Shown: one piece after another, positions 24,165-32,696 of the stretch
Layout of the letters: each line of letters begins with the position of its first letter
Position numbering within the stretch: position 1 is the stretch's first letter
Assembly (NCBI GenBank): GCA_945898185.1
Contig: CAMDHP010000009.1
Span: 1-37,575, forward strand
Length of the DNA stretch: 37,575 bases
Direction: 5' to 3'
Source of the DNA: Akkermansia muciniphila
GTDB lineage: Bacteria; Verrucomicrobiota; Verrucomicrobiia; Opitutales; Opitutaceae
The notes under the pieces: generated by a model
Database searches by the model: none
Told to the model about the DNA's origin: nothing
Seen by the model: only the letters and a program-made list of their open reading frames with translations
Made by a program: the position numbers and the translations under genes

Positions 24165-26234
24165 CTACAGAGGATTTTTTCCGTCCCTCTCCGCGCTGAG
24201 CAGCGCGCGCACCGCCACCGCCACGCTTGAGCCGACCATGAGCAGCGCCGCCGCCACTGGGTGCAAATGGCCCGAGGCCGCCAGCGCCATGCCGGCCAGA
24301 TTGTAGACCGATGCAAAAAGCAGATTCCCCCGCACCCCTCGCACCACTCGTCGCGCCACCCGCACCGCTTTCGGCAACATCCTAAGGTCGTCGCCCGCAC
24401 AGGTCGCCATCGCAGACGCTCGCGCCAAGTCGCTGCCGCCCAGGACAGCCAGCGCCGCCGCCGCCGCGCCCATCGCGCTCGCGTCGTTAAGCCCGTCACC
24501 GGCAAACAACACCGTCCGCCCCTCACGCCCCAGTTCGCGCACCCGCTCCGCCTTGCCCTCCGGCGTCAGCCCGCTGCGCACCCGAGCGCCGAGCTCCTCA
24601 GTTGGGTGCGGATCGCCGGTCAAAACTTCCACGGCGACGCCCGCCGCCCGCAGACCGTCTAAAGTGGCGCTCAAGCCGATGCGCCACCGCTCTCCCAGCG
24701 TGATCGTCGCCGCCAATACCCCGTCGACCGCCACGATCACCTGCTTGCCCCGCTCGCCACCCCTCATTCCCGTCGCCGGCTGTGTCGCAGATGTCTCCAA
24801 GCTTTTGTCGATCACAGATTGACAAGAGTTCTTTTGATTAGCCCACGACGGCTCTCCTATTCGCAACCGTCGGGTAAACTGCCCCGTGGTGGTGCCCGCA
24901 GTCGTGTGATCTTCCCGCCAACTCGCCTCTACTCCGCACCCCGCTTCCACCCGGACCTTTGGCGCCGTGCTAGGCAGGGCTACCGCCGCCGATTCTTCGC
25001 TCCCTGCCCCGCCCTCAGCCGCCAGCGCGCGGGCCACTGGATGCGGCAGCCCGACCTCCGCTCGCGCAACCGTCTCCTTCAACCACGCCTGCCGCGCCGG
25101 CTCACGCCAGCCCGCCGCGAATTCCCAACCCTTCACCGCCACCGCCGCCTCCGAGAGCGTGCCAGTCTTATCGAAACAAACCGTATCCACCCGTGCCAGC
25201 GCCTCCAAAAAATCCCCGCTGCGCGCCACGATGCCGAGCCGCGCCAGCCGTGCCAGCCCGCCCCACACCGCCAGCGGCGTCGCGAGCCCCATCGCGCAGG
25301 GACACGCCACTAAAAGCACCGACATCGCATTGAACAGCGCCCGATCCCAAGGGCCAACCCAGCACCAACCTGCGAAAGTGGCCGCGCTCACCGCTGTGAC
25401 AACCGGCAAAAACCAGCGCATCAATCGGTCCGCCTGAGCTTGTAGGCGTGACGGCGCAAGCCGCGCCGCCGTCACAGCCGCCAGCACTGCGTCCAACCGC
25501 CGCCCGCCACCGCCCGCGCGCACCGCGATCAAAAGCCTTCCATCCACCGCTTGCGTGCCCGCCCACACCAGCTCGCCCGGTCCGCGCGCCAATGGTCGCC
25601 ATTCGCCCGTCATCGCCGCCTCCTCTACATACGAGCGTCCTTCCAAAATCTCACCGTCGACGCAAATCGCCCCGCCAGGCGGCACCACCACGCGCTCGCC
25701 GCCGCGCAACGCTGCCACCGCCCGCGTCTCGATCCGTCCGTCGTCGCCGAGCACCTGGGCGCGGTCAAATCGCTCCGCCGTACCCGCCACCGCCCGCAAC
25801 GCCGCCACCCGGCTGCGCGCACCGAGCATTTTTCCAAGGGTGTGAACCACCACCAGCACCGCCACCACCTCGTAATAAATCGCCCCTGTGCCCGTGAGCG
25901 TGCTCACCATCGAGCCCGCCAGCGCCCCGGCCAGCGTGACCAGAAACAACAGGTCAATCGTTACCCGCCGCTCGCGCAGCGACGTCCAAGCCTGCCCAAC
26001 CAGATCGCGACCCAAAAACCCAAGCACCGCGAACGCGCTCGCCGCCAGACCGCCGTGCACAAGCCAATATGCCGCGCCCTGGGCTGGTGTGATATTCACT
26101 GCCAGACTAAACACCATCGCCTGCGCCGCCACCGCCACGCTGATGCCGATACGCAGCCAAGCGCCGTTTAACAGGCGCTGATCTGCCTGCAAACCCGGCT
26201 CGGCCGACGCCTCCGCTGGCCGCGCTTCGCTCAC
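24165..26234 (-). CDS. Cu+-type P1B ATPase (FixI/CcoI- or CopA2-like)
   Basis: Pumps a soft metal, most likely Cu+, out of the cytoplasm across the inner membrane. The 689-residue protein has the actuator TGE at 209-211, the transport motif CPC at 311-313, and the phosphorylated D355 in DKTGT. An HP dipeptide is at 398-399 and GDGLNDASAM begins at 579. No N-terminal CxxC metal-binding domain is present, and residues 1-25 are disordered-looking. Its ATG overlaps the previous gene by four bases, in an operon with a Sco protein, which points to oxidase copper loading instead of detoxification. Residues 460-495 form an extra, less GC-rich insertion in the nucleotide-binding domain. Confidence 0.92.
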   Translation of the reverse strand: MSEARPAEASAEPGLQADQRLLNGAWLRIGISVAVAAQAMVFSLAVNITPAQGAAYWLVHGGLAASAFAVLGFLGRDLVGQAWTSLRERRVTIDLLFLVTLAGALAGSMVSTLTGTGAIYYEVVAVLVVVHTLGKMLGARSRVAALRAVAGTAERFDRAQVLGDDGRIETRAVAALRGGERVVVPPGGAICVDGEILEGRSYVEEAAMTGEWRPLARGPGELVWAGTQAVDGRLLIAVRAGGGGRRLDAVLAAVTAARLAPSRLQAQADRLMRWFLPVVTAVSAATFAGWCWVGPWDRALFNAMSVLLVACPCAMGLATPLAVWGGLARLARLGIVARSGDFLEALARVDTVCFDKTGTLSEAAVAVKGWEFAAGWREPARQAWLKETVARAEVGLPHPVARALAAEGGAGSEESAAVALPSTAPKVRVEAGCGVEASWREDHTTAGTTTGQFTRRLRIGEPSWANQKNSCQSVIDKSLETSATQPATGMRGGERGKQVIVAVDGVLAATITLGERWRIGLSATLDGLRAAGVAVEVLTGDPHPTEELGARVRSGLTPEGKAERVRELGREGRTVLFAGDGLNDASAMGAAAAALAVLGGSDLARASAMATCAGDDLRMLPKAVRVARRVVRGVRGNLLFASVYNLAGMALAASGHLHPVAAALLMVGSSVAVAVRALLSAERDGKNPL

Positions 26235-27172
26235 GGCTTCACCTCAAACCAGAAAGGCACGAACACCGGCTCACCCGCGAGCTGCACTTGCGCCCAGATG
26301 ACGTATCGCCCGGGCTGCGGAATCATGAGATCAAAATTCAACTCGGGCCGCCTCGGATCCGGCACTTTGCCTTGGTCCTCCGAACGGGGATGCAAATGCG
26401 CGAACCCCGTCCGCCCGACATCAAACGCCACCAGATGGGCATAAGCATCCATCACCAGTTCGAGCGGCACCGGGTCGCCCCCTTTCATCGCCCGCACCGC
26501 AAAACCCAGAGTCGTCGGCTGGCCCGCGCGGATGCCGCCGCCGGCACCACCCGGCACTATCGTAAACTCCCAGTCTCCGCGCCGTGCCGTCAACACCGGC
26601 GTCGTTTCGATCTGGGCGGAGACTGGCCCGCTCGCCGCGCCGGGCGCGATGTAGTCGGAAAACGCATACAATCCGCGACCAGTCGCCGCCGGCGTGAAAT
26701 CCGCAAACACCCGATACACTCCGCCATGAGCCGGAAAGTGAGTGAAGCGCCACTCCCCCGCCCGTTCGCCTGGCTCGGGGTGCAGGTGTTGATAATCAGT
26801 GAGGGTTTCGTCCACCGCGAGCAGGTGCAGTTTGCGGGTATGGACCGCGAGAAGATCCTCCGGTCCGATCGGCTTCCCGCCGGCGGTGGAGAGCGTAAGG
26901 GTTAATGTATTCGCCTCCGGCTTCCCACTTCGCTCCAGCTTCACCAGCACGGGCGAGCGAGCGGCCACTACCGGGATGAACTGCGGTCGCGAGGGGTCGC
27001 ACATTTCCAACCCACCGTTGCCGTCCACGCGGAAATCCAGGTGGTGCAAGTTCGTCCCCGTCGGCAGAAACCGAAAAGCAACATAAAGCGCCATCGCTGC
27101 GCCGGTGATCCACCCCGCGCCACGCCAGTTTAACGGCGGCCTTTTCGCACTCGTTTCATCGCAGGCAGGCAT
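26231..27172 (-). CDS. Membrane-anchored protein with two HLHP repeats, putative copper protein
   Basis: A 313-residue protein with one N-terminal helix (about residues 20-37) and a large, probably periplasmic, part. Two internal copies of one pattern are visible: HLLAVD, then HLHP (H116, H129, H131), and HLVAFD, then HLHP (H246, H259, H261). Both have exactly 13 residues between the first two histidines. A beta-strand pattern (GGVYRVFADF and PGRYVIWAQV) follows each copy. This suggests two YtkA/FixH-like Ig-type domains with metal ligands. The gene starts 4 bases after the Sco gene's stop and overlaps the Cu-ATPase by ATGA. I infer copper transfer between them for oxidase assembly; no function is established. 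Confidence 0.8.
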   Translation of the reverse strand: MPACDETSAKRPPLNWRGAGWITGAAMALYVAFRFLPTGTNLHHLDFRVDGNGGLEMCDPSRPQFIPVVAARSPVLVKLERSGKPEANTLTLTLSTAGGKPIGPEDLLAVHTRKLHLLAVDETLTDYQHLHPEPGERAGEWRFTHFPAHGGVYRVFADFTPAATGRGLYAFSDYIAPGAASGPVSAQIETTPVLTARRGDWEFTIVPGGAGGGIRAGQPTTLGFAVRAMKGGDPVPLELVMDAYAHLVAFDVGRTGFAHLHPRSEDQGKVPDPRRPELNFDLMIPQPGRYVIWAQVQLAGEPVFVPFWFEVKP

Positions 27173-27176
27173 CGGA

Positions 27177-28100
27177 TTAACGCTTCATTTTCTCCACAAA
27201 CTCCGAAGGCAACCAGCCCGAGCCGTCCGCTCGCCAGATGATTTTTCCCTGCTCGTTAATCAGGAGAGTGGCGAGGGTGTGCTTCAAAATACTCTCATCC
27301 CTCGTCGCCTCGGTCAGCACACCGAACTGGGTGAGCAAATCCTTGATCGCACGCTCCGGGCCGGTGAGGAACGAAAAATTACCCGTATCAATGCCACGGT
27401 CCTGCGCATAGGACTTTAGCACGCCGGGCGTGTCGTAGTCGGGGTCGAGCGTGATCGAGATAAGTTCAAGGTTCGTCACCCCCGCCGCCTTCGCCTTGGC
27501 CTGCGTCTCCATCATTTTGAGTGTCGAAGCCGGACACATGGTCGCCACCGGGCAGCGGGAAAAGATGAAGTTCAACATGATCTGTTTGCCGCGAAACTTC
27601 GCTGCCGACACGACCGATCCCTCCTGGTTGAAGAGCGCGAAATCGGGCAGGTTTTCTCCTACCTCACGGTAGGCACTGCGTCCGCGGATGGCTGTATCCT
27701 GCCGGAGCGAACCTGCGGCTTCGGCCACCGCTGCCTGCGCGAGCGGATCCTCAAACCATACTTTTTCCAAACTGAAGCGGCCACCTTCCTCCTCCACCAA
27801 CTCGGCACGGAGCACCGCGCCCTCTGTGGCCAGCGCGAGGTCTCCGCTGTTAACGAAAAACTCCATCGTCATGCGCGCCATGTAGCCGGGAATTTCGTCG
27901 TGATCAACCAGCAGCGCGCCCCGCTCCTTCAGCACGGCGACAACCCGTCCGGTCAACGGGTGACGCTTCTCGTTGGAGCTGGCACCGGCTGTTTCGCCAG
28001 AAGAAGCGGAGTTTTTATCGTTTCGACTGCACCCGGACGAGCCGCCAGCCAGGGCGAGCACGACGACCCAAAAAAGTGGTTGAGGGAATAATCTGCACAT
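27177..28100 (-). CDS. CusF-like domain fused to a Sco1/SenC copper chaperone
   Basis: A 307-residue exported protein with an N-terminal hydrophobic signal. C24 in GGSSGC may be a lipoprotein site, though the lipobox is weak. Residues 47-105 resemble the CusF-type copper fold (VDHDEIPGYM, then MTMEFF, with H67, M77 and M79). Residues 145-305 form a thioredoxin-like Sco domain (FIFSRCPVATMCP) with the conserved late histidine H274. The cysteine pair is C183 and C189, so CX5C instead of the usual CX3C. Sco proteins load the CuA centre of cytochrome oxidase. It is the first gene of the copper operon and divergent from ctaA. Confidence 0.92.
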   Translation of the reverse strand: MCRLFPQPLFWVVVLALAGGSSGCSRNDKNSASSGETAGASSNEKRHPLTGRVVAVLKERGALLVDHDEIPGYMARMTMEFFVNSGDLALATEGAVLRAELVEEEGGRFSLEKVWFEDPLAQAAVAEAAGSLRQDTAIRGRSAYREVGENLPDFALFNQEGSVVSAAKFRGKQIMLNFIFSRCPVATMCPASTLKMMETQAKAKAAGVTNLELISITLDPDYDTPGVLKSYAQDRGIDTGNFSFLTGPERAIKDLLTQFGVLTEATRDESILKHTLATLLINEQGKIIWRADGSGWLPSEFVEKMKR

Positions 28101-28136: not shown

Positions 28137-28188
28137 AGGCATTGCGGACTCCGGCTTCTTGCCTTGAGTGCGCGTTTCTTCCTCCGCA

Positions 28189-29178
28189 ATGCCATCGTCA
28201 TATTCATCCTCCCGCACCTCTGCTTACCGCCCCGGCTTAGCCTGGTTTTCCCTTTTGGGCGCGTCTTGGGTTTTCGGTGTGGTCACACTGGGGGCCTTCA
28301 CTACCAGCATTGGAGCTGGCATGGCCTTCGCCGACTGGCCGCTCTCGAACGGTTCACTCAACCCCGAGGGCTGGCTGTCAAACCTCGCGATGTTCGCCGA
28401 GCACTCGCACCGGCTCTTCGGCACGGTGATGGGGCTTATTTCGATCGCGCTGGCGGTTTGGCTTTGGAAAACCGAATCCCGCCGATGGGTGCGCAATCTC
28501 GGCTGGGCTGCTCTTAGCATCGTCGTAATCCAGGGAATCCTTGGCGGCAAACGCGTGCTCCTCGACTCCATCGAGGTGCCGGGTTTCGAGATGACCCTTG
28601 GTCAGATGCTTCGCATTCCGCACGGCATCCTTGCGCAGATGTTTGTCTGTATTCTCTTCGCGATTACCGCGAGTCTCTCCAGGCGCTGGAGTGAAGTGCC
28701 GAGCGACGCCGCATCCTTTTCGCCGGGGCTCCGCCGCTTGGCCGTCACCGCTACCGTTTTAGTGTGGGTGCAGCTCGTGATCGCCGCCGTAATGCGGCAC
28801 AATCAGGCCGGTCTGGCCATCCCCACCTTTCCACTCACGCCCGAAGGAGGTCTGCTGCCTTCGCGTTGGGATTTTGGTATAGGCATCCATTTTACTCATC
28901 GCATCATGGCACTGGTGTTATCATGTGCTTTGCCTTGGTTGATCTTCTCAATCTGGCGCTCACCGGCTGCGACAAGGGGCTACAAACAGGCCGCCGGGCT
29001 CCTGCTAACGTTGCTGGGTTTGCAGGTCTCGCTCGGCGTCGCCTCGGTTTGGTCGGCGCGCGATCCCTATTTCACCACAGCCCACGTTATCGTAGGCGCA
29101 TGTCTGCTCGCACTCACCTTCTCTCTCGCTTGGTGGACCCATCGCGACGTCTTGACCACTCGTGACGCAGCGCGATGA
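28189..29178 (+). CDS. ctaA: Heme A synthase (COX15/CtaA family)
   Basis: Oxidises the C8 methyl of heme O to give heme A for aa3-type oxidases. From ATG 28189 the protein has 329 residues and about eight membrane helices. The heme-ligand histidines lie in FAEHSHRLFG, RIPHGILAQ, GIHFTHRIMAL and FTTAHVIVGA, two in each half of the duplicated fold. The conserved EHxHR glutamate is present. A GTG at 28168 would add seven residues. Its stop overlaps ctaB's start as ATGA. It faces the Sco gene across a short gap, so copper and heme A supply probably share control. Confidence 0.94.
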   Translation: MPSSYSSSRTSAYRPGLAWFSLLGASWVFGVVTLGAFTTSIGAGMAFADWPLSNGSLNPEGWLSNLAMFAEHSHRLFGTVMGLISIALAVWLWKTESRRWVRNLGWAALSIVVIQGILGGKRVLLDSIEVPGFEMTLGQMLRIPHGILAQMFVCILFAITASLSRRWSEVPSDAASFSPGLRRLAVTATVLVWVQLVIAAVMRHNQAGLAIPTFPLTPEGGLLPSRWDFGIGIHFTHRIMALVLSCALPWLIFSIWRSPAATRGYKQAAGLLLTLLGLQVSLGVASVWSARDPYFTTAHVIVGACLLALTFSLAWWTHRDVLTTRDAAR

Positions 29179-30098
29179 GTAATGTCTCCGCCATGACCGA
29201 GATCGCCTCACCCACCACCCTGCCCGCCGCCCGCTTTGGCGATTACCTCGCGCTCACCAAACCACGGCTGAGCCTGCTGTCGGTTATCACCACGCTGGTC
29301 GGCTATGCAGCCGTGCGGCCGGGCTGGCACGGGGCAGAGTTCGCTTTTCTCTGCGCCGGCACCTGCGCCTGCGCCGCTGGGGTTGCCGCCGTGAATCAAT
29401 GGATGGAGAGCGACACCGATGCCCGCATGGCCCGCACCGCGGAACGCCCCATCCCGACTGGCAAGGTGGCGCCCGGCTCCGCGTTTATAATCGGCTGGGG
29501 ATTATGCGCGCTGGGCCTTGGCTTGCTGTTCGGCGGAGTCAACGGACTCGCCGCTACCTTCGCGCTTGCGACTATCGTTGCCTACCTTGCGTTTTACACG
29601 CCGGCCAAGCGGGTCTCCCGCTGGTCCACCGAGCTCGGCGCAGTGGCAGGTGCGCTCCCACCGCTTATTGGTTGGGCGGCCGGCGAGGGCGGGGTCGTGC
29701 GCGTGGGTGCGCTGGGCTGGATTTTATTCGGCATCATGCTGACCTGGCAAATCCCGCACTTCATGGCGGTGGCGTGGACCTATCGCCACGACTACGCAGC
29801 GGTGGATTTCCCCATGCTCCCGGTGCGCGATCCGGATGGAAGCAGCGTAGCGCGCTGGTCGCTCATCAACACGATCGCGCTGGTCGCCCTCTGTTTGCTG
29901 CCCTACGCGCTCGGTCTGGCGGGAGCCATTTATGCGGTGGTCACCGCTCTGCTGGGTCTATGGTTTCTGATGCGGGCGGTCGCCTTCACTCGCCCCGCCA
30001 CCCGCGACGCACAAGCCCGCAAATTGTTTTTCACTTCCATTACCTGGCTTCCGCTGCAACTCGGAATTCTGGTCGTTGACCGCCTGATGCTCAGTTGA
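29175..30098 (+). CDS. ctaB: Heme O synthase (protoheme IX farnesyltransferase)
   Basis: Attaches a farnesyl group to heme B, giving heme O, the substrate of CtaA. The 307-residue UbiA-family membrane protein has about nine helices. The prenyl-diphosphate-binding motif starts at N74 (NQWMESDTDARMART); E78 replaces the first aspartate of the usual NxxxD form. The second loop, YTPAKRVSRWSTELGA, followed by GALPPLIGW, is diagnostic for CtaB. It overlaps ctaA by four bases and is followed 42 bases later by a DUF420 gene. The start at 29175 is fixed by the ATGA overlap, though M7 is possible. Confidence 0.95.
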   Translation: MSNVSAMTEIASPTTLPAARFGDYLALTKPRLSLLSVITTLVGYAAVRPGWHGAEFAFLCAGTCACAAGVAAVNQWMESDTDARMARTAERPIPTGKVAPGSAFIIGWGLCALGLGLLFGGVNGLAATFALATIVAYLAFYTPAKRVSRWSTELGAVAGALPPLIGWAAGEGGVVRVGALGWILFGIMLTWQIPHFMAVAWTYRHDYAAVDFPMLPVRDPDGSSVARWSLINTIALVALCLLPYALGLAGAIYAVVTALLGLWFLMRAVAFTRPATRDAQARKLFFTSITWLPLQLGILVVDRLMLS

Positions 30099-30140: not shown

Positions 30141-30593
30141 ATGACGATTTCCGATATTCCCCCGCTTAACGCGGCGCTAAACGCTCTCGCTACTCTGCTC
30201 ATGAGTGCCGGATTCGTGTTTATCAAATCGGGCAACAAAATCGCCCATCGCGCCTGTATGTTTAGCGCCGGCTTAGTCTCCGCCGTGTTCCTTGTCGGCT
30301 ATCTCGCGCATAAATTCCTCAAGGGCGCGGCGCTCGGCCCCGGCGAGGCCGTCCACACCAAGTTCGGCGGCACCGGTGCGATCGCTGCCGTGTATTACAC
30401 GATGTTGATCAGCCATATTCTGCTCGCGATTAGCATCGCCTACCTCGTGCCACGCACTTTCGCCTTCGCCTTTAAGGGTGACTTCGAGAACCACAAGCGC
30501 TGGGCCCGTTTCACCTTCCCTATTTGGTATTACGTGAGCGTTACCGGTGTGCTGGTTTACTTTTTCCTCTACCAGTGGTGGCCGGCGAGCTGA
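30141..30593 (+). CDS. DUF420 (CtaM/YozB-like) membrane protein
   Basis: A 150-residue protein with four hydrophobic helices, matching the DUF420 family in length and layout. Conserved-looking histidines lie in NKIAHRACM, GYLAHKFLKG, LISHILLA and FENHKRWAR. The Staphylococcus aureus member, CtaM, is needed for maturation of a heme-copper oxidase. Here the gene follows ctaA-ctaB, which supports the same kind of role. It is probably the third gene of the operon. The assignment to the family is good; the biochemical step is unknown. Confidence 0.88.
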   Translation: MTISDIPPLNAALNALATLLMSAGFVFIKSGNKIAHRACMFSAGLVSAVFLVGYLAHKFLKGAALGPGEAVHTKFGGTGAIAAVYYTMLISHILLAISIAYLVPRTFAFAFKGDFENHKRWARFTFPIWYYVSVTGVLVYFFLYQWWPAS

Positions 30594-30680: not shown

Positions 30681-31571
30681 ATGTCCAGCGCCTCAAACCG
30701 ATCCTCCGTTCAGCAGTCGCCTTCAAAAGACCCGCCCTTTTCGCCGGCCCTCTTTATTTTCACAATTCTCGTAAGCCTTGCGGTGCTGATTGGCGCACTC
30801 ATCCTCCTTGCACCCGGTGTCTGGCAGGCCCAACTCTCAGCGTCCTTCCTGAGCTTCGCAGCAGTCTTCGCGCTCACCCACGCTTTCGGTGGCCTCATGG
30901 AATACTTTTTCCACCGTTACGTGCTGCACGCACCGCTGTTCAACGTGCTCTCTTACTTCTATAAACAGCACACCCTTCATCACGCGCTGACCCGCATCGT
31001 CTACCGCCCCTCGCCTACCCTGAACGAGTCGATGCCAACCCTCGTCGAGGTAGAAAACCGCTACCCTATCGTCGAGGAGAAACAGCACGAGGCGTCTTTC
31101 TTCCCTTGGTATACGCTGATCGTGTTTGGCCTGCTACTCACGCCCCTGCTTGCTCTCGGCCAATACTTTTGGCCCGCCGCCCCTTTCATGCTCGCCGGTT
31201 GGACTGGCCTCGCCTTCTCGATGGCCCTTTATGAGCTCGTCCATGCCGTCGAGCACTGGCCAGAGGGTCGGTGGCACGCCATGATCGCCCGCCCGCACAC
31301 CGGTCGTTTCTGGCGCAAGGCCTACGCCTTCCATCTCCGCCACCACGCCGATATCCGCTGCAACGAGGGAATCTCCGGAGTCTTCGGTTTGCCGATCTAT
31401 GACTTCCTTTTCGGCACCTACGTTGATCCCGAGACCCTTTATCTGCACGGCAAGGAGACCAGCTCCAAGCAATTCGTCAGCCCGCGCCCGAGCTTTTTCC
31501 TGATCCGGTGGCTCGATACCCAAGCCGACAAGGCCGTGAGGACGCGCCGCGAAAAACGCGCCCGAGCCTAG
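30681..31571 (+). CDS. Histidine-box membrane fatty acid hydroxylase-superfamily protein
   Basis: A 296-residue di-iron membrane oxygenase of the fatty acid hydroxylase/sterol desaturase superfamily. Hydrophobic segments lie at about 22-45, 53-72, 143-163 and 165-188. Histidine boxes are complete: HRYVLH (H78, H83), HTLHH (H97, H100, H101), HAVEH (H188, H192) and HLRHH (H218, H221, H222). These should bind two irons on the cytoplasmic face. The substrate cannot be told; relatives hydroxylate fatty acids, sterols or carotenoids. It follows the heme A genes on the same strand but after a larger gap, so it may be its own unit. Confidence 0.85.
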   Translation: MSSASNRSSVQQSPSKDPPFSPALFIFTILVSLAVLIGALILLAPGVWQAQLSASFLSFAAVFALTHAFGGLMEYFFHRYVLHAPLFNVLSYFYKQHTLHHALTRIVYRPSPTLNESMPTLVEVENRYPIVEEKQHEASFFPWYTLIVFGLLLTPLLALGQYFWPAAPFMLAGWTGLAFSMALYELVHAVEHWPEGRWHAMIARPHTGRFWRKAYAFHLRHHADIRCNEGISGVFGLPIYDFLFGTYVDPETLYLHGKETSSKQFVSPRPSFFLIRWLDTQADKAVRTRREKRARA

Positions 31572-31688: not shown

Positions 31689-32696
31689 ATGAAAAAGATC
31701 TTCTGGTTTCTCGTCAGCTTTGCTCTGCTTGCCGCCCTCGGGCTGCTGCTAAAAAACAGCCGGGATACCGTAAGGTATTTCCAAGACCAGGGACGCCAAG
31801 CCACCCTGAAGGTCGGAAAGAAATACAACGCGTCGCGCTGGACCGAGCCGCTTCCGCTCAAAAAGATTCATGCCTACACTGCCATGATGCTCCCCGATCA
31901 CGAGATTCTGATCGAATCCGACCAGGAGCTCGGTGAAGGCACCGAATACTTTATCCGTTTTCTGACCCGTGATATCGCCGATGCTGGACGCGCTCTGTCG
32001 AGGCTCCCCTTGGTGAATACGATACGCCTCAAATCCGAGGTGGACGGCACTCCGGTTAAACTCGCCGATGCCGACCTGATGGATCGCGCGATCGAAAAGG
32101 CAATGGGGCCACCCGCCAAAGGCGTGTATGTCCCTCAACGAGTCGTCGCGGAGGCGGGACCAGACCACGCCAAACCCAATGTGCCCTTCCTGTTTACCGG
32201 GAGTAAAGACCCCGTCCCCAAGGTGCTCTGGAACAACTCTACGATCGGCGAGCTTTTCGTAATCGCAGGGTGGGCATTCATGGTTCTGTTTTTATTTCTC
32301 CACGCCTGGTCCACTCCGCTTTTCCCGAGCCGTAAAGCAGGGTCCGAACGGAATGATTTCGTTCACCCATCACTACGCCGCATAAACCCCGACATGCCAG
32401 CGGATGCCTCAGTCCGGCTCCAGTATAAACCCAAACCCGCCGACTCGCACCTGCACGACACACCGCCAGCAGCCTCAGGACCATCGCCCGCCCCGCCGCC
32501 CCCGAAGCCGGCCTCCATTCCCATGCCATCGAGCATGAAAATCACCCCTCGTGCCACCAGGCCCGACGACGACTCACGTGCCACCACCGCGCCTTTTGTG
32601 CCGCCAGAAGGGCGCGTGGAAACGTCATTAAAACTCAAGCGTAGGCCCGCTGCGGACACCATGCCTCCATCGTTCGAGCCGCCCGCTGAGACCTGA
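31689..32696 (+). CDS. Two-helix membrane protein with Pro-rich tail, unknown function
   Basis: A 335-residue protein: a signal-like helix at residues 5-22, an extracytoplasmic domain of about 160 residues, a second helix at 187-206, and a long Pro/Ala-rich cytoplasmic tail (about 215-335). The middle domain has mixed charged and hydrophobic strands (DHEILIESDQELGEGTEYF) and no cysteine. The tail contains runs of prolines near 265-275, typical of flexible linkers or scaffolds. I recognise no family. A clear hairpin terminator follows. No neighbour gives a hint of its job. Confidence 0.72.
   Translation: MKKIFWFLVSFALLAALGLLLKNSRDTVRYFQDQGRQATLKVGKKYNASRWTEPLPLKKIHAYTAMMLPDHEILIESDQELGEGTEYFIRFLTRDIADAGRALSRLPLVNTIRLKSEVDGTPVKLADADLMDRAIEKAMGPPAKGVYVPQRVVAEAGPDHAKPNVPFLFTGSKDPVPKVLWNNSTIGELFVIAGWAFMVLFLFLHAWSTPLFPSRKAGSERNDFVHPSLRRINPDMPADASVRLQYKPKPADSHLHDTPPAASGPSPAPPPPKPASIPMPSSMKITPRATRPDDDSRATTAPFVPPEGRVETSLKLKRRPAADTMPPSFEPPAET

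Follow-up and report, generated by a model that had tools for sequence, protein, structure and literature searches.

A predicted membrane-anchored HLHP-repeat protein encoded beside sco is a candidate copper chaperone for caa3-type cytochrome c oxidase in Opitutales

The HLHP gene in the window (the whole 37,575-nucleotide stretch of DNA that was analysed) probably encodes a membrane-anchored, extracytoplasmic copper chaperone for caa3-type cytochrome c oxidase. How CuA is loaded in bacteria without PCuAC is an open question outside Bacillus, and the HLHP protein is a conserved candidate that stands beside sco and is present or absent together with the caa3 oxidase across Opitutales, an order of Verrucomicrobiota. 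The function that we propose, that of a CuA copper donor, is of a known kind; the protein family that would carry it is unnamed and widespread.

Results

The HLHP protein is an internal duplication with two conserved ligand sets

The protein has the following features in the window.

26231..27172, minus strand: HLHP-repeat protein, membrane-anchored, with two Ig-like domains (open reading frame, 313 aa, ATG start)
27071..27127, minus strand: N-terminal transmembrane helix, residues 16-34 (AF2 helix and hydrophobic stretch in the sequence)
26999..27001, minus strand: Cys58 (alignments of 81 Opitutaceae and 38 Opitutales proteins)
26645..26950, minus strand: Ig-like domain 1, residues 75-176 (AF2 model, fold matches)
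26777..26842, minus strand: candidate ligand set 1, H111, H116, H129, H131, P132 (alignments)
26237..26590, minus strand: Ig-like domain 2, residues 195-312 (AF2 model, fold matches)
26387..26452, minus strand: candidate ligand set 2, M241, H246, H259, H261, P262 (alignments)

Repeat 1 reads H116-L-L-A-V-D and then H129-L-H131-P132, repeat 2 H246-L-V-A-F-D and then H259-L-H261-P262, and the step from H116 to H129 and from H246 to H259 is 13 residues in each. The initial annotation had described these two repeats (H-L-x-A-x-D, a 13-residue step, HLHP); the residues match, and shuffling and profile comparison confirm that the protein is a true internal duplication. Within the single sequence, the halves align with a Smith-Waterman score of 64, which none of 5000 shuffles reached (highest 57); profile-profile alignment of the halves with hhalign gave 99.1% probability and an E-value of 5.3e-19, with H116/H246, H129/H259 and H131/H261 in register. 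Two features had been missed by the initial annotation. H111 stands five residues before H116, and in the alignments the repeat-equivalent position before H246 is taken by M241; further, none of the aligned Opitutales proteins has lost C58.

An alignment of 81 Opitutaceae proteins keeps all six histidines and C58 without exception. Alignment A1 joins the window protein with others from Opitutales at 27-89% identity to it, 38 in all, and has C58, H116, H129, H131, M241, H246, H259 and H261 invariant; H111 is kept in 37/38 and M241 in 38/38. Cys58 is part of a conserved CDPxxPQF motif between the transmembrane helix and domain 1. The six histidines are likewise invariant in a 14-member wide alignment from Verrucomicrobiota, Pseudomonadota, Bacillota, Actinomycetota, Cyanobacteriota, Bacteroidota and haloarchaea, which took in eight distant relatives from plasmid tblastn matches. 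H111 is nearly invariant in this set (Q in the Streptomyces member), and C58 and M241 vary, most distant relatives lacking them.

The best fold matches of modelled domain 1 are copper proteins

The AF2 model, built with 81 sequences (pLDDT 87.9, pTM 0.82), consists of helix 16-34 and two Ig-like sandwiches. According to DSSP, H116 opens strand 115-121 in this model, H129 lies in strand 127-130 and H131 just past the strand; the histidines of the second repeat are placed likewise. This predicted placement fits, rather than proves, a hairpin site. The top fold matches of the full-length model are mainly generic Ig-like domains. Since domain 2 took up this match list, domain 1 was modelled (pLDDT 90.5) and searched alone. 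Copper proteins then lead the PDB fold ranking, with CrdA at Z 9.2, FetP at 9.0, FtrA at 8.3 and P19 at 8.1; the CopC-family protein PcoC ranks lower (Z 6.6). In Foldseek, too, CrdA ranks first (E 4e-4). Z values of about 9 are modestly over the tool's stated noise level and hence support a copper-protein fold class, not homology. Sequence and profile searches with the protein and its alignments found no covering Pfam, NCBIfam or PDB sequence family, and PDB searches found no solved structure of any family member.

The HLHP gene is linked to sco and the oxidase genes

The genes around the window copy are the following.

24165..26234, minus strand: heavy-metal P-type ATPase (P1B), 689 aa, CPC motif (TIGR01525)
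27177..28100, minus strand: Sco with N-terminal CusF-like domain, CPVATMC (PF02630 87.5 bits; PF11604 27.8 bits, cut-off 27)
28168..29178, plus strand: ctaA, heme A synthase (PF02628 112.2 bits)
29175..30098, plus strand: ctaB, heme O synthase of the UbiA family (PF01040 174.8 bits)
30141..30593, plus strand: DUF420 protein, CtaM family (PF04238 127.4 bits)

DUF420 corresponds to CtaM (PMC9145763). The CusF-Sco fusion and the tight spacing that had been reported for this locus both hold: the HLHP gene has a 4 nt gap to the CusF-Sco gene and a 4 nt overlap with the ATPase gene. The ATPase scores 372 bits with TIGR01525, over its cut-off of 346, and 311.5 bits with the copper model TIGR01511, under its cut-off of 397. 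The window Sco carries a Cx5C motif (CPVATMC, with internal Met) in place of the CxxxC of standard Sco; of the 111 Sco ORFs adjoining the HLHP gene, about 90 carry such a CPVATMC-like Cx5C motif and may represent a Sco subtype travelling with it. Farther along on the plus strand lie a 296-aa ORF (30681-31571) with HRYVLH, HTLHH and HLRHH boxes like those of fatty-acid hydroxylases/desaturases, for which Pfam gave no match at E 0.001, and an ORF of 335 aa (31689-32696), membrane-associated and proline-rich in its tail, also without a Pfam match.

Neighbours were counted by tblastn in 80 Opitutales loci from named genomes. In every locus that extends far enough (77/77), sco lies directly upstream of the HLHP gene and in its orientation. 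Divergent from the HLHP gene are ctaA (71/72), ctaB (63/64) and DUF420/ctaM (61/62), and farther out, past these three, COX2 (44/57) and COX1 (38/50). Subunit II in these loci has a cytochrome c domain. A P-type ATPase is directly downstream in 4/66 loci, so that the ATPase part of the operon is a local feature. The initial annotation had placed the protein between ATPase export and Sco and had suggested a search for co-occurrence with Sco, ctaA and copper ATPases; the link to Sco and to ctaA is borne out by these counts, the ATPase link and the place derived from it are not. Two clusters of the neighbourhood table, c11 and c15, proved to be ORFs antisense to ctaB and DUF420 and were discarded. 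A plastocyanin/azurin-like protein (PF00127; for example L106:3921-4478) is encoded in about 45 Opitutales loci; its gene lies between DUF420 and COX2, in the orientation of sco and the HLHP gene, and the protein may be one more carrier of copper or electrons for the oxidase.

Presence of the HLHP protein follows that of the caa3 oxidase

The close sample comprised 57 relatives including the window genome, 39 carriers and 18 non-carriers of the HLHP protein. sco adjoins the HLHP gene in 39/39 carriers. A caa3-type COX1 is present in 38/39 carriers compared to 0/18 non-carriers, and the exception, G052, is 50% complete; Caa3_CtaG is present in 37/39 carriers compared to 0/18 non-carriers, with exceptions that are 77-79% complete. 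Fisher values for these co-occurrences are 6e-14 and 6e-13, with kinship ignored. Caa3-type COX1 was defined as E <= 1e-149 to PF00115, a line that was set after the data had been seen, and no genome has its best PF00115 match between 1e-136 and 1e-150. Six genomes (G022, G026, G033, G040, G043 and G049) have Sco, CtaA and another COX1 type without the HLHP protein.

In a 289-genome sample of the phylum, the HLHP protein and CtaG mark the identical 35 Opitutales genomes, and the identical 8 Opitutales genomes have neither. These 8 span four families, and genus g42 is split. Among the other orders, 3 genomes have the HLHP protein without CtaG and 5 have CtaG without the HLHP protein, thus strict linkage is confined to Opitutales. 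The gene is single-copy in nearly all genomes searched. Profile searches with positive controls found PCuAC (PF04314) in 0/57 relatives and 0/289 genomes of the phylum, and Cox11 in 0/57 relatives; YtkA occurs in just 2/35 Opitutales carriers of the larger sample.

Distant relatives are widespread and mostly lie in copper-resistance islands

The window protein has the two Ig-like repeats, each with H-x12-H-x-H-P, that define the two-domain HLHP family. The initial annotation had regarded the protein as new, which does not stand: relatives with the identical ligand set are widespread, beyond the oxidase setting, and the family is thus already found across bacteria and archaea, though unnamed. 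A tblastn search of plasmids returned 108 records with <60% identity to the HLHP protein, from Actinomycetota, Bacillota, Cyanobacteriota, Bacteroidota, haloarchaea and Legionella. They are mostly labelled 'hypothetical', others 'heavy metal-binding domain-containing protein', and a literature search, which covered few subscription journals, found no paper naming the family.

Twelve annotated distant loci were picked by hand out of a single match list; 9/12 have a copper or heavy-metal gene at <=7 kb, a count from hand-picked loci that has no background rate. The Rhodococcus relative is flanked by an HMA protein and a P-type ATPase, a P-type ATPase adjoins the Tsukamurella relative, and HMA, ATPase and cupredoxin genes adjoin that of Gloeocapsa. 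A CusA/CzcA pump and its adaptor are encoded near the Legionella relative, RND pumps near those of Hymenobacter and Haliscomenobacter, CzcA and an ATPase near that of Leptolyngbya, and four-helix copper proteins near those of Haladaptatus and Halomarina. The remaining 3/12 loci (Priestia, Planococcus and Streptomyces) show no clear copper or heavy-metal link. The Tsukamurella relative is annotated 'heavy-metal-associated domain', but the profile search gave no HMA match, and therefore no fusion is claimed. As the distant relatives are mostly in resistance islands and not in oxidase loci, the ancestral role may have been tolerance. Relatives from other verrucomicrobial orders (L141:7467-8747, L142:7188-8612 and L143:7422-8723) have longer N-terminal parts ahead of the repeats, and a Sco-like ORF adjoins that of L141 divergently.

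Discussion

Opitutales carriers have Sco, CtaG, CtaM, CtaA and CtaB, whereas PCuAC is absent and CtaK is absent as a rule. The HLHP protein is the sole conserved, sco-linked and ligand-rich candidate for this slot, and hence we propose it as the copper donor to Sco and/or CuA. Most likely, it fills the position of PCuAC or CtaK as an extracytoplasmic donor that acts with Sco for the CuA site. The single N-terminal helix would keep both Ig-like domains outside the cytoplasmic membrane, and each domain would hold one copper site at an equivalent beta-hairpin, made of three invariant histidines together with H111 in domain 1 or M241 in domain 2. Copper would be picked up outside the membrane and handed to the adjacent CusF-Sco and/or directly to apo-subunit II, a job that would be similar to that of PCuAC in Proteobacteria and CtaK/YtkA in Bacillus subtilis. 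That the metal is copper, that each domain binds one ion, and that it is passed on to Sco or CuA, and in this direction, is what we infer. The copper-carrier role in oxidase assembly that the initial annotation had suggested is thus partly supported, by the constant position beside sco, the co-occurrence with the caa3 oxidase, the modelled resemblance to copper-protein folds and the islands of the relatives. The gene setting of the homologues agrees with it, being sco throughout the Opitutales loci and copper or heavy-metal genes at most of the hand-picked distant ones.

The position in resistance islands of distant relatives with identical ligands, and the nearest fold match, the copper resistance determinant CrdA, could also be explained by a periplasmic tolerance protein that sequesters and buffers copper at the oxidase assembly site, with no handover to Sco or CuA. 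We consider this unlikely, because the gene in Opitutales follows the caa3 oxidase genes and not resistance genes, including several independent co-losses, and sco is its sole invariant neighbour. It is less likely still that the protein is an assembly factor for CuB or heme A that works with CtaG, CtaM and CtaA rather than with Sco on CuA. The strict co-occurrence in Opitutales with Caa3_CtaG, a tentative CuB factor, and the divergent neighbours ctaA, ctaB and ctaM would be in line with such a function; however, the gene adjoins sco, whose product acts on CuA, more tightly than it does CtaG, and the six genomes that combine ctaA and Sco with another COX1 type have no HLHP protein, indicating that heme A by itself does not account for the association. 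Tri-histidine sites are also common as zinc sites, and generic Ig-like domains top the full-length fold matches. Yet it appears least probable that the protein handles zinc or another metal, or that it is an accessory Ig scaffold of the oxidase whose histidines have a structural role, given the linkage to Sco/CusF and to copper islands and the copper proteins that come first when domain 1 is searched alone.

If the HLHP protein is the copper donor, its twofold site raises the question whether both CuA coppers come from one chaperone molecule. Tentatively, and with distinctly less confidence than in the chaperone role itself, the protein might represent a third CuA-chaperone family, unrelated to PCuAC and at most distant kin of CtaK, in which two tri-histidine sites on one chain could supply both coppers of the binuclear CuA centre; in that case bacteria and archaea would share, in the wider family, a module for copper transfer that has been overlooked.

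Among the known systems, a close parallel is found in B. subtilis, whose caa3 oxidase requires Sco, CtaG, CtaM, CtaA and CtaB plus the lipoprotein CtaK/YtkA, which replaces PCuAC (PMC9145763; PMC13344008). CtaK (P40768; PF13115) is membrane-tethered and extracytoplasmic, has conserved metal ligands and serves caa3 with Sco in an organism without PCuAC (PMC9145763, PMC13344008). The HLHP protein differs in having two domains and a helix anchor rather than a lipid, and the upstream strand with H116/H246 is missing from the YtkA set in the alignment. Sub-threshold PF13115 matches occur in 9/12 distant relatives at E < 0.1 (best 24.7 bits) and in 7/81 Opitutaceae proteins at E < 1 (best E 0.0022); no member reaches the curated cut-off of 25.9 bits, and the window protein has no match. 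Against YtkA sequences hhalign gave 27% and 33% for the two domains and 21% with the close set (overall 20-33%), and in this low-probability alignment the domain 1 HxH falls close to the HGH motif of the YtkA-like sequences. On sequence, remote kinship is at most a possibility. PCuAC (PF04314) shares the role inferred here, that of a copper donor with Sco in CuA assembly. It has a cupredoxin-like fold and the motif H(M)X10MX21HXM (PMC9145763), in contrast to the H-x12-HxH that the HLHP protein has twice, in Ig-like domains. The Pfam search found no PF04314 match in the window protein. P19, FetP and FtrA are periplasmic Ig-like proteins with structures that have copper bound (Z 7.6-9.0 to domain 1), but they are 7-13% identical and give no match in sequence searches, and they belong to another system, iron uptake. 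CrdA from Helicobacter pylori (PDB 9ll2/9ll4), a copper-binding secreted beta-barrel, is the best match of domain 1 (rmsd 2.5 over 92 residues), but it is single-domain and 16% identical to domain 1. CrdA contains neither His nor Cys, and a Met-rich loop is presumed to bind its copper (PMC9182242). The unnamed relatives have the two-domain layout and the six histidines in common with the window protein at about 22-30% identity; they differ in that they lie mostly in copper-resistance islands and some are fused to HMBD (PF19335). Since the identical ligand set recurs unnamed in such islands of many phyla, establishing what the protein does here would extend annotation to a wide family.
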